Assembly (NCBI RefSeq): GCF_004341885.1
Contig: NZ_SLVX01000002.1
Span: 434,001-498,000 of the forward strand
Length of the DNA: 64,000 nucleotides
DNA from: Shinella granuli
Lineage (GTDB): Bacteria; Pseudomonadota; Alphaproteobacteria; Rhizobiales; Rhizobiaceae
Direction: 5' to 3'
The position numbers and the translations under genes were made by a program. The notes below the pieces were generated by a model, which was given only the letters and a program-made list of their open reading frames with translations, made no database searches and had not been told where the DNA came from. Shown here piece after piece: positions 18,669 to 29,272 of the stretch. Every line of letters begins with the position of its first letter. Position 1 is the stretch's first letter.

Positions 18669-19976
18669 ATGGCTGACGCAGCGAACGGTGCATCTGCAAC
18701 CGGGGCGCAGGCCTTCAACAAGAACCGCCCGTTCTCCGCCTTCGAGCGGATGGTCGCCTGGCGCTACCTGCGCTCCCGGCGCAAGGAAGCCTTCATCTCG
18801 GTGATTGCCGGCTTCTCCTTCATCGGCATCATGCTGGGCGTCGCGACGCTCATCATCGTCATGGCCGTCATGAACGGGTTCCGCACCGAGCTGATCTCGC
18901 GCATCCTCGGCATCAACGGCCACATGATCGTCCAGCCGATCGATACGCCGCTGAACAACTACTCCCAGCTTGCCGAGCGCCTGTCGGCGGTTCCGGGTGT
19001 GACCATGGCGATCCCGCTCGTCGAGGGCCAGACGCTCGCCTCCGGCACGGCGGGCGCCGGCACCGGCGCGCTGGTGCGCGGCGTGCGCGCCGACGACCTT
19101 GCCAAGATGAAGGCCGTCTCCGACAATATCAAGGAAGGCGACCTCGTCGGGTTCGCCTCCGGCAGCGGCGTTGCCATCGGCTCGCGCATGGCCGAACAGC
19201 TCGGCCTCAGCGCCGGCGGCCAGATCACGCTCGTCGCGCCGGAAGGGGACGTGACGCCGCTCGGCGTCAATCCGCGCGTGAAGACCTACACGGTCTCCGC
19301 CATCTTCGAGATCGGCATGTCGGAATATGACGCGTCGATCATCTACATGCCGCTCGAAGAGGCGCAGCTCTATTTCAACGCCGAAGGCATCGTGCAGTCG
19401 ATCGAGCTCTTCGTCGCCAATCCCGATGATGTCGACAATCTGCGCCAGCCGATCGAGGCGGCGGCTGAACGGCAGATCTTCATCACCGACTGGCGCCAGC
19501 GCAACCGCACCTTCTTCTCGGCCCTGCAGGTCGAGCGCAACGTCATGTTCATGATCCTGACGCTGATCGTGCTCGTCGCCGCGCTCAACATCATCTCCGG
19601 CCTCATCATGCTGGTGAAGGACAAGGGCAGCGACATCGCGATCCTGCGCACCATGGGGGCGACGTCCGGCGCGATCATGCGCATCTTCTTCATGACGGGC
19701 GCGGCGATCGGCACGGTGGGCACCTTCGCGGGCGTCCTGCTCGGCGTCGTCGTCTGCCTCAATGTCGAATCGATCCGTCAGTTCTTCTCCTGGATCTCGG
19801 GCACGACGCTGTTCAATCCGGAACTCTATTTCCTCAGCCAACTGCCGGCCGACATGAATGCCGGCGAGACGGTCTCGGTCATCGTCATGGCGCTGGCGCT
19901 CTCCTTCCTCGCGACGATCTTCCCCGCCTGGCGTGCCTCCAAGCTCGATCCGGTCCAGGCCCTGCGGTACGAATAG
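18669..19976 (+). CDS. lolC: lipoprotein-releasing ABC transporter permease LolC/LolE
   Basis: This is the inner-membrane permease of the Lol system, which releases outer-membrane lipoproteins from the inner membrane to the carrier LolA. It has 435 residues. Structure: a cytoplasmic N-terminus with the conserved FERMVAWRYLRSRRKEAFISVI, one helix (about 40-62), a large periplasmic domain, then three helices (about 290-420) and the FtsX-type ending WRASKLDPVQALRYE. Only one permease gene is present, so it probably works as a homodimer with LolD. Naming it LolC rather than LolE is conventional. Confidence 0.95.
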   Translation: MADAANGASATGAQAFNKNRPFSAFERMVAWRYLRSRRKEAFISVIAGFSFIGIMLGVATLIIVMAVMNGFRTELISRILGINGHMIVQPIDTPLNNYSQLAERLSAVPGVTMAIPLVEGQTLASGTAGAGTGALVRGVRADDLAKMKAVSDNIKEGDLVGFASGSGVAIGSRMAEQLGLSAGGQITLVAPEGDVTPLGVNPRVKTYTVSAIFEIGMSEYDASIIYMPLEEAQLYFNAEGIVQSIELFVANPDDVDNLRQPIEAAAERQIFITDWRQRNRTFFSALQVERNVMFMILTLIVLVAALNIISGLIMLVKDKGSDIAILRTMGATSGAIMRIFFMTGAAIGTVGTFAGVLLGVVVCLNVESIRQFFSWISGTTLFNPELYFLSQLPADMNAGETVSVIVMALALSFLATIFPAWRASKLDPVQALRYE

Positions 19977-19985
19977 GATAAACGC

Positions 19986-20672
19986 ATGAATGCGCGCGTC
20001 GCTCTGGAACTGAAGGGTATCGAACGGCACTACGGCCAGGGCGAGACCCTGCTGTCGATCCTGAAAGGGGCCGACTTCACGCTGAAGAGCGGCGAGACGG
20101 TCGCGCTCGTCGCGCCCTCAGGCACCGGCAAGTCGACGCTGCTGCACATCGCCGGCCTTCTGGAAAAGCCCGATGCCGGCGAGGTTTTCGTCAACGGCCA
20201 TTCCTGCGCGAGGCTGCCCGACGACCAGCGCACCGCAATCCGCCGCGGCGAGATCGGCTTCGTCTACCAGTTCCATCACCTCCTGCCGGAATTCAGCGCG
20301 CTGGAGAACATCATGATGCCGCAGCTCATCGGCGGCCTTTCCAAGGCGGAGGCGCGCGAGCGCGCGGCCCAATTGCTCGACTATATGCGCATCGGCCACC
20401 GCGCCGACCACCGGCCGTCGGAACTCTCCGGCGGCGAGCAGCAGCGCGTCGCCATCGCCCGGGCCGTCGCCAATGCGCCGCTCCTGCTTCTCGCCGACGA
20501 GCCGACCGGCAACCTCGATCCGGAGACCGCCGGCTACGTCTTCGAGGCGCTGGAAGCGCTCGCCCGCCAGTCCGGCCTTGCCGCGCTCATCGCCACCCAC
20601 AACCACGAGCTCGCCGGCCTGATGGATCGCCGCGTGACGATCGAGGACGGCCTCGTGCGCGAGCTTGCCTAA
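19986..20672 (+). CDS. lolD: lipoprotein-releasing ABC transporter ATP-binding protein
   Basis: This is the ATPase of the lipoprotein release system. It has 228 residues. Walker A is APSGTGKST at 43-51, the ABC signature is [14 protein letters not shown], Walker B is [13 protein letters not shown], and the switch His is in ATHNHEL. It begins 9 bases after the permease gene. A rhizobial dispersed repeat lies directly after its stop. Confidence 0.97.
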
Positions 20673-20755
20673 AGAGCAAGTGCGAAGCGGTTTTGCGTCC
20701 GGAATTGCGTTGAAATAAAGGGGTGGAGCGTCTTCGCGATTCGCGGAAACGCTCT
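20673..20755 (+). repeat. rhizobial dispersed palindromic repeat, copy 1
   Basis: The segment AGTGCGAAGCGGTTTTGCGT, then GGAATTGCGTTGAAA and a GAGCG..CGCTC hairpin, matches the copies at 56731-56830 and, more weakly, 55589-55650. The element fills the whole gap between lolD and the next minus-strand gene and could form the 3' end of both convergent transcripts. Confidence 0.75.
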
Positions 20756-21335
20756 AGTTGTCCAGCCCGCAGATCGAGCGCGCAATCTCGTCCTTCCAGT
20801 CCTTCAGCAGCACGAACTGCGCCTTGCCGCTGATCGGCTGGCCAAGCGCCTTGCCCTTGCCGGTCAGCACGTTGAGGTCGCATTCGCTTCCCCCGTCCGG
20901 GTTGAGCGTATCGTAGGACGAGAAGGTATAGCCTGCGACGATGAAATCGAAATTGCGGTAGGCGACGGTCAGCGTCTGGCGCCAGCGGTCCCGGCCGATC
21001 GATTCGTTCTTCGTCACCAGCGTGAAGGAACCGTTGGAAAGCGCCGCCAGCTCCGGCTCCTGGCCGGCCATGATGGGCAGGCTGCCCCAAACGGAGTTCG
21101 GCAGGGAAAGCGCCAGCGCCAGCCGGCCTTCCTCCGGTTTGGCGAGATAGACATAAAGCCCGCTGTTTTCGCCGCTGTCCTCGTCCGCCGTCGCGACGAT
21201 GGCAAGATCCGCCGTGCCGTCCTTGTTCCAGTCGCCGCTCGCCATCGCCATGATGCGCTCGGCCGGAAAGTCCGCAGCCCCCGCCGCAGCGGGCAGGGCG
21301 GCAGACAGCAGAAGGGCGGCAATCAACGACTTCAT
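20754..21335 (-). CDS. exported FG-GAP/VCBS-like protein
   Basis: This is a 193-residue protein with a signal peptide (residues 1-20, ending AAAGAA). A calcium-binding type motif GDWNKDGTADLAIV follows at about 34-47, as in FG-GAP beta-propeller repeats, but only one such repeat is clear. One pair of cysteines (SECDLN, SICGLDN) lies in the second half. The ATG at 21335 has a strong GGAGG upstream on the minus strand; the frame is open much further but without homology. Its stop lies in the dispersed repeat after lolD. It probably acts in the periplasm; the substrate is unknown. Confidence 0.8.
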   Translation of the reverse strand: MKSLIAALLLSAALPAAAGAADFPAERIMAMASGDWNKDGTADLAIVATADEDSGENSGLYVYLAKPEEGRLALALSLPNSVWGSLPIMAGQEPELAALSNGSFTLVTKNESIGRDRWRQTLTVAYRNFDFIVAGYTFSSYDTLNPDGGSECDLNVLTGKGKALGQPISGKAQFVLLKDWKDEIARSICGLDN

Positions 21336-21409
21336 CTTTTTTCCTCCGTTTGATCGAGGCGACCTTATTGCGCCCGGCCGCGCCGGTCCAGAGGGCCTGT
21401 GGAAAGCGG

Positions 21410-21438
21410 TTGACATGAGAACAAAAATTGAACAAAAT
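21410..21438 (+). promoter_or_regulatory. LexA-controlled promoter (SOS box) of the 28-residue peptide gene
   Basis: The direct repeat GAAC-N7-GAAC (21419-21433) is the alphaproteobacterial LexA box (GTTC-N7-GTTC on the other strand). A weaker third copy, AAAC, follows with the same spacing. The box lies between TTGACA (21410-21415) and CAAAAT (21433-21438), 17 bases apart, so LexA would block the polymerase. The same box precedes dinB in this window, an established SOS gene. Confidence 0.8.
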
Positions 21439-21465
21439 GGAAACATAAAAGGAAAGGGAGCCACA

Positions 21466-21552
21466 ATGACCGATTTTCTTCGTGATCTTGCTGCATTCAC
21501 CTCCATGGCCATGTTCGTCGCCAGCTTCTCCGTCATCCTCTTCGGCATCTGA
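21466..21552 (+). CDS. 28-residue single-span membrane peptide, SOS-regulated
   Basis: The ORF begins at an ATG placed 5 bases after the strong ribosome binding site GGAAAGGGAG and encodes 28 residues. Residues 1-8 are polar and charged (MTDFLRDL). Residues 9-28 are one hydrophobic helix, rich in Ala, Phe, Met and Val and ending FGI. With a LexA box in its promoter it resembles in design, not in recognised sequence, Caulobacter SidA, a 29-residue inner-membrane peptide made during the SOS response that blocks division through FtsW/FtsN. It stands 122 bases before dnaE with no clear terminator between. Coding status is supported by the promoter, RBS and membrane profile; the function is inference. 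Confidence 0.7.
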   Translation: MTDFLRDLAAFTSMAMFVASFSVILFGI

Positions 21553-21674
21553 CAGGATCGCCTCCGTCCGGCGGGCGCCGCATGCGTGGAAAGCGGGTGC
21601 AACGCCAAGAACGGTCTGGACGGGAGGGGTGCGAATCCGCTTAAGCTTCCGGCCTTGATCGGAAGGACGATGCC

Positions 21675-25172
<3,498 letters not shown>

Positions 25173-29222: not shown

Positions 29223-29272
29223 GAACAAATATTGAACATCGCGACATTACTGCTTAAGTTCACGAGTCTCAA
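29223..29272 (-). promoter_or_regulatory. dinB promoter with LexA (SOS) box
   Basis: On the minus strand TTGAGA (29267-29272) and TAATGT (29244-29249) are 17 bases apart. GTTC-N7-GTTC follows at 29223-29237, so the LexA box covers roughly +1 to +15. It ends 4 bases before the dinB ATG, leaving no room for a normal ribosome binding site. Confidence 0.85.

Follow-up and report, generated by a model that had tools for sequence, protein, structure and literature searches.

The 64,000-nucleotide stretch of Shinella granuli DNA analysed here (hereafter the window) carries, directly before the gene of the replicative DNA polymerase, a 28-codon open reading frame that probably encodes a member of the SidA family: a peptide that would be repressed by LexA, induced by DNA damage and able to halt cell division by way of the FtsW/FtsI/FtsN complex. 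The frame (21466..21552, plus strand; MTDFLRDLAAFTSMAMFVASFSVILFGI plus stop) is a real gene under purifying selection, and its product, a rhizobial SidA-like peptide, combines an R6-D7 pair with a hydrophobic stretch from residue 9 to residue 28. SidA itself is described as a 29-residue, SOS-induced division inhibitor of the inner membrane that interacts with FtsW (PMC4211646). The Shinella peptide is most likely its rhizobial ortholog rather than an analogue, because in the family of Caulobacter a boxed ORF of about 29 residues holds the same slot and aligns with the rhizobial peptides without gaps. An earlier note on this DNA had proposed a SidA analogue of unrelated sequence; the likeness to SidA stands, whereas the lack of sequence relationship does not, given the gapless alignment, the shared slot and a profile comparison by hhalign at E 6e-6. 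Its guess that the peptide serves as an SOS division inhibitor is well supported by sequence comparison.

Expression of the frame would be driven by a sigma-70-like promoter, TTGACA-N17-CAAAAT (21410..21438, plus strand; -35 element TTGACA at 21410-21415, -10 element CAAAAT at 21433-21438, spacer 17 nt), which matches 10 of 12 consensus letters and is the only such site in a consensus scan of both strands of 21200-21900, where shuffled sequences lead one to expect 0.1. Within the spacer, and abutting the -10 element, lies a LexA-type operator of the form GAAC-N7-GAAC (GAACAAAAATTGAAC, 21419..21433, plus strand), overlapped by a second, degenerate box, GAAC-N7-AAAC (21430..21444, plus strand), so that half-sites stand in tandem with an 11-nt period. 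The weaker third half-site that keeps this period, AAAC at 21441-21444, went unmentioned in the earlier note; AAAC is also the most frequent third half-site in relatives (63 of 106 loci). Translation would be served by a Shine-Dalgarno-like sequence, AGGAAAGGGAG (21450..21460, plus strand), with a similar sequence in 21 Shinella loci, and the leader of about 20 nt is predicted to hold no excess structure (z 0.74). Box, promoter, strong ribosome site and 28-codon frame had all been noticed on first reading, and all were placed correctly.

The Caulobacter LexA consensus, given as GTTC-N7-GTTC (PMC4211646), is complementary to GAAC-N7-GAAC. The bare pattern is common, with 147 matches genome-wide against 86 for the reversed pattern and four in the window against 1.54 expected (5 of 100 shuffles gave at least four), and it therefore counts as evidence only together with its context. 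That context includes an exact box that starts 63 nt ahead of this genome's lexA ORF (locus L157, box 1090-1104, ATG 1153; lexA identified by TIGR00498) and another, GAACAAATATTGAAC, at 29223-29237 in the window itself, at the start of the minus-strand gene dinB for DNA polymerase IV. Among 29 other boxes read, out of the 147 in the genome, just one has a hydrophobic ORF of 24-36 aa lying 15-100 nt behind it, and no such ORF was found behind the three other boxes of the window. The boxes of lexA and dinB, the rarity of box and ORF in combination, and the conservation of box, length and frame raise the present box above chance. As in a SidA gene, then, the promoter at the Shinella locus contains an apparent LexA operator.

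Residues 9-28 of the peptide, with a mean Kyte-Doolittle value of 1.99, probably form one membrane helix, so that the length (28 aa) and probable single-helix architecture resemble those of SidA, and the earlier description of a hydrophobic micro-peptide behind a LexA box (21419-21433) holds good, the helix being inferred from the sequence. Selection on the frame is evident: JC dN/dS is 0.218 in 21 Shinella sequences and 0.216 in 48 close loci, and within the genus pN/pS is 0.25, against a mean of 0.97 and a minimum of 0.35 in 200 column-shuffled controls. With dN/dS at about 0.22, and thus below 1, the check on frame conservation in relatives that had been proposed for this candidate was passed clearly. 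Searches of Pfam and NCBIfam assigned the peptide to none of their families at E <= 1, and a search of Rfam returned a single match, far under its gathering score.

All 21 Shinella genomes searched encode the frame, and its 28 codons, counted from the common start, are kept in 48 of 48 close loci (L001-L048; at L038 the scoring rule chose a start four codons earlier than the common one), 46 of which have the exact box (exceptions L014 and L025). Across the family, 106 of 122 loci with the peptide carry an exact box no farther than 150 nt from the start codon (103 of 117 without the five duplicate fetches L034/L049, L030/L050, L033/L052, L054/L083 and L055/L084), rising to 117 of 122 when at most one mismatch is allowed. 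Counted by genome, 98 of the 199 in the family sample gave a match at E <= 10; 96 of them were fetched (G133 and G153 were left out), and 90 have peptide and box with at most one mismatch, six (G204, G094, G079, G046, G145, G215) failing on these terms. The 101 sequence-negative genomes of the family were represented by 60 in which dnaE was sought and 50 in which the region upstream of it was read (at L375 this region was short): an exact box with a short hydrophobic ORF is present in 14, and the combination of exact box and ORF before dnaE is absent from the other 36.

At the level of the order, a profile search with the cut-off E <= 1 matched 169 of 397 genomes, many weakly, and from the loci fetched 18 peptides of 30-36 residues were taken, with an exact box in 16, one mismatch in one and no box in one (L066). 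Peptides scoring below 13 were dropped, both in the family (L094, L132, L133) and in the order (L062, L073, L074, L155, L156). The class sample comprised 49 of the 173 genomes with a dnaE match other than G000, chosen by score and genome size; in 13 of these 49 loci dnaE is preceded, on its own strand, by an exact box and a short hydrophobic ORF, one of the 13 (L162) belonging to Shinella's own order, and a further box on the dnaE strand and four on the opposite strand are all without such an ORF. When DnaE served as the query, the arrangement was found in 26 of 46 named loci, some of which lie outside Alphaproteobacteria; the 26 include Rhizomicrobium electricum, Parvibaculum sedimenti and a Phenylobacterium MAG.

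The gene that follows, dnaE (21675..25172, plus strand), encodes replicative DNA polymerase III alpha and begins 122 nt past the peptide ORF, with no terminator-like site found between the two. The common upstream neighbour is lolD (19986..20672, plus strand; TIGR02211 as best match, under its cut-off), itself preceded by lolC/E (18669-19976; lolCE model TIGR02212, above cut-off). A small FG-GAP-like protein gene (20754..21338, minus strand; below cut-off) diverges from the peptide promoter in the window, and in 35 of 148 loci such a gene separates lolD from that promoter. Placement directly before dnaE, as first described, is borne out by the gene order of the window, and in 128 of 148 loci with the peptide (duplicates included) dnaE falls inside the 1.5 kb fetched. 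The remaining 20 peptide-like loci, without dnaE in 1.5 kb, divide into 13 that are boxed and seven that are unboxed look-alikes or doubtful; ten of the 13 adjoin lolD (L112, L119, L120, L137, L140-L145), and three (L134, L135, L139) have neither lolD nor dnaE in the 1.5 kb fetched. At two further loci (L236, L237) the box lies about 1.2 kb from dnaE. Judged by eye from the Shinella alignment, the segment at 21590-21670, between ORF and dnaE, appears well conserved; it could contain a separate promoter for dnaE or a leader structure.

The Phenylobacterium locus pointed to its family, the Caulobacteraceae, in which 50 of 80 genomes were searched, picked mostly for a size of at least 3.5 Mb and in a few cases for a peptide match or for having none, and 47 loci were read. 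Of the 47, 25 show dnaE preceded by an exact box and a hydrophobic ORF, and 22 lack this combination. The boxed ORFs encode 29 residues in 23 of 25 cases, 30 in one and 31 in one, several having longer in-frame starts and all lengths being those given by the start codon that holds the peptides in their common register. In the plasmid collection no match to a Caulobacteraceae peptide was found.

That C. crescentus SidA occupies this slot is suggested by its length, locus tags and neighbours rather than read from its sequence. The tag of sidA is CCNA_02004 (PMC10769358), whilst dnaE and lexA were numbered CC1926 and CC1902 (PMC1839093); lexA being CCNA_01979 (PMC11535069), the two numberings differ by 77 there, which would make dnaE CCNA_02003, and CCNA_02005 is listed as an inosine-uridine nucleoside hydrolase (PMC3667746). 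The tags of recN, CC1983 and ccna_02062, are offset by 79, as would follow from intervening genes that the older numbering lacks. The order in C. crescentus would thus be dnaE - sidA - hydrolase, and two of the Caulobacteraceae loci (L318, L321) match it, with a hydrolase gene (PF01156, E ~1e-78) whose orientation is away from the 29-aa ORF; eight of ten Caulobacteraceae upstream neighbours scanned are other genes or belong to no family, and are not this hydrolase. SidA and the Shinella peptide therefore appear alike in size (29 and 28 residues), hydrophobicity, LexA control and, by tags and by the two matching loci, in their slot before dnaE, which on the Caulobacter side is our reading of the gene numbering. 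The two differ in that the rhizobial locus has other neighbours (lolCD and the FG-GAP gene).

Comparison of the peptides themselves was based on an alignment of 37 rhizobial sequences and one of 24 from the Caulobacteraceae slot. Aligned by hhalign, the two gave a probability of 85% with E 6.2e-6 (for a single comparison) and 42% identity over 19 columns, with Met1 on Met1 and without gaps. The observed ungapped profile score, for which the best shift was 0 (22 peptides of 29 residues), was reached by 7 of 20000 column permutations, and by 37 of 20000 when permutation was kept within the charged N-part or the helix. With the Caulobacteraceae HMM, 32 of 37 rhizobial peptides, the window's included, beat all 200 of their own shuffles, as did 8 of 18 order-level peptides; the window peptide scored 9.4 bits, against a 99.9th percentile of 8.9 and a best score of 14.4 among 14000 decoys. 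The reverse test was weaker: with the rhizobial HMM, 4 of 24 Caulobacteraceae peptides beat all 200 own shuffles and 15 of 24 were outscored by at most three, the peptides of L318 and L321 being outscored by 23 and 42 of 200. All 18 order-level peptides beat their own shuffles with the rhizobial HMM, scores that are partly circular because these peptides were mostly found by the rhizobial profile. At class level, three of 15 peptides beat all 200 shuffles with the rhizobial HMM (L239, L242, L171) and three of 15 with the Caulobacteraceae HMM (L239, L179, L171); for the remaining class-level peptides the support is that of place, box, size and hydrophobicity.

A common pattern runs through both groups: a basic residue 6 (R, K or H, and in rhizobia Q too), D/E7, A/S10, F/L11, S/A13, F17 and V18. 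W19 and C22 are prevalent in the Caulobacteraceae peptides and absent from the rhizobial ones, and residue 3 is often basic in the former whereas rhizobia have D or E there. Helical periodicity of conservation was marginal, being reached by 249 of 5000 permutations in Rhizobiaceae and 1049 of 5000 in Caulobacteraceae, and an argument from a conserved helical face was set aside for that reason. Homology to the Caulobacteraceae peptides of the slot is thus favoured by hhalign, by permutation and by the forward HMM, and less strongly by the reverse.

In Sinorhizobium meliloti Ak57 the stretch from lolD to dnaE carries MADFVRDLAAFASMSLFIVSISVIALGL and an operator of two exact overlapping boxes, and the 28-aa frame is the only sense ORF of at least 20 aa wholly between promoter and dnaE. 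The suggestion that a gene of this size escapes annotation is in keeping with the PLSDB gene table of Ak57, incomplete by its own description, which has no feature and hence no CDS over the ORF. A translated novel small ORF of S. meliloti 2011, sORF25, is located in the 5'-UTR of dnaE1 (PMC10117765) and is likely to be this same gene. The account given there differs from ours in treating it as a possible upstream ORF (uORF), such roles being considered for some 5'-UTR small ORFs with sORF25 singled out among them (PMC10117765); neither 'SOS' nor 'LexA' occurs in the main text of that paper. One further record, CP090106.1 (L435), is titled S. meliloti plasmid pSymB; it carries proS, lol genes and dnaE, and so appears to be a mislabelled main chromosome.

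Small damage-induced membrane proteins that inhibit a late step of division are described from several other bacteria, namely YneA of Bacillus, SosA of Staphylococcus and ChiZ of Mycobacterium (PMC13396833), to which the Shinella peptide is likened by description. YneA, like SidA, interacts with FtsW, but a LysM domain is part of YneA and of ChiZ, and SosA has an extended region (PMC13396833). Caulobacter DidA is likewise a small, damage-induced membrane inhibitor of division, but it has 71 residues, is SOS-independent and activated by DriD, and interacts with FtsN.

TisB is a further peptide whose size fits that of the Shinella peptide, and size, single hydrophobic helix and LexA control would all suit an SOS toxin of the TisB/DinQ kind, causing membrane depolarisation and dormancy rather than inhibiting the divisome. 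Both of these E. coli peptides are LexA-controlled membrane peptides, DinQ having 27 residues and depolarising the membrane, but they depend on mRNA processing and are restrained by antisense RNA (PMC3567139), whereas the Shinella frame has a leader of some 20 nt with a strong ribosome site. A type I toxin would have an antisense RNA partner and a long structured leader, and prediction points to neither here, the consensus scan of 21200-21900 having found no antisense promoter-like site; sequence and place, moreover, fit the SidA slot, so we regard a toxin of this kind as very unlikely. It is worth weighing alongside it a leader ORF that controls dnaE in cis, with a peptide that has no job of its own. 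The 122 nt to dnaE without a terminator-like site, the age of the association with dnaE and the position of sORF25 in the dnaE1 5'-UTR (PMC10117765) would all accord with this. A leader ORF should, however, always lie upstream of the gene that it regulates, and the 13 boxed loci whose fetched 1.5 kb contain no dnaE count against a pure leader role, although dnaE may lie farther on in these, as do the two loci with the box about 1.2 kb away. Nor does a leader require amino-acid constraint on a hydrophobic stretch (dN/dS 0.22), and the unit has a LexA-type promoter of its own; we consider this explanation very unlikely.

Short hydrophobic peptides easily look alike, and many of the Caulobacteraceae peptides score weakly with the rhizobial HMM, as they might if the Shinella product were an SOS membrane micro-peptide without descent from SidA, acting on division or on something else. 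Against this stand the same slot and operator, the nearly equal length and the gapless register, together with the Parvibaculum peptide (L239), which beats all its own shuffles with both profiles, and we judge such independent origin highly improbable.

If the peptide is indeed a SidA ortholog, its mode of action can be sketched. During normal growth LexA would sit on the operator in the spacer, touching the -10 element, and block the promoter, as the operator and the boxes of lexA and dinB suggest. Upon DNA damage RecA would lead to cleavage of LexA and the promoter would fire. The resulting mRNA, with its leader of about 20 nt and strong ribosome site, should be translated at once into the 28-residue, one-helix membrane peptide; the leader being short and without unusual structure, the peptide would be expected to appear immediately on derepression. 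By homology to SidA, it would then act on the FtsW/FtsI/FtsN complex of septal wall synthesis and delay division until LexA is restored. The peptide transcript may also continue into dnaE, since no terminator-like site precedes that gene.

One Caulobacter paper counts sidA with the division inhibitors that have no relation to their counterparts in other bacteria (PMC4211646), and among the literature matches listed none reports SidA in rhizobia or a rhizobial SOS division inhibitor. The SidA kind most likely extends beyond Caulobacter into the rhizobia and, judged at least by place and operator, into other orders of the class as well. We would go further only tentatively: SidA may possibly be an ancestral alphaproteobacterial SOS brake on division, fixed next to the replicative polymerase in an arrangement by which LexA would free the peptide and extra dnaE on one transcript, with some prophages of the group carrying LexA-free relatives that perhaps stop division of the host. 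Should the Shinella peptide be SidA, the damage checkpoint on division of many plant symbionts and their relatives would become testable through one short ORF per genome, natural sequence variation could be used to map the way in which FtsW is blocked by a helix of 28 residues, and the translated small ORF before S. meliloti dnaE1 would probably gain a function. The case also illustrates how annotation can overlook genes this small.

Finally, look-alike peptides (e.g. MRDLLHDIASF...) occur without an exact box or a nearby dnaE at L116, L122, L130 and L131, and also at L111 and L124. In the phage collection no match was found to the window peptide, nor to the one look-alike copy searched. Two of the look-alikes (L116, L122) lie near phage exonuclease families and one (L131) near a weak terminase match, and these peptides may be prophage-borne relatives. 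Four genomes with a look-alike (G097, G036, G207, G181) carry a boxed copy too.
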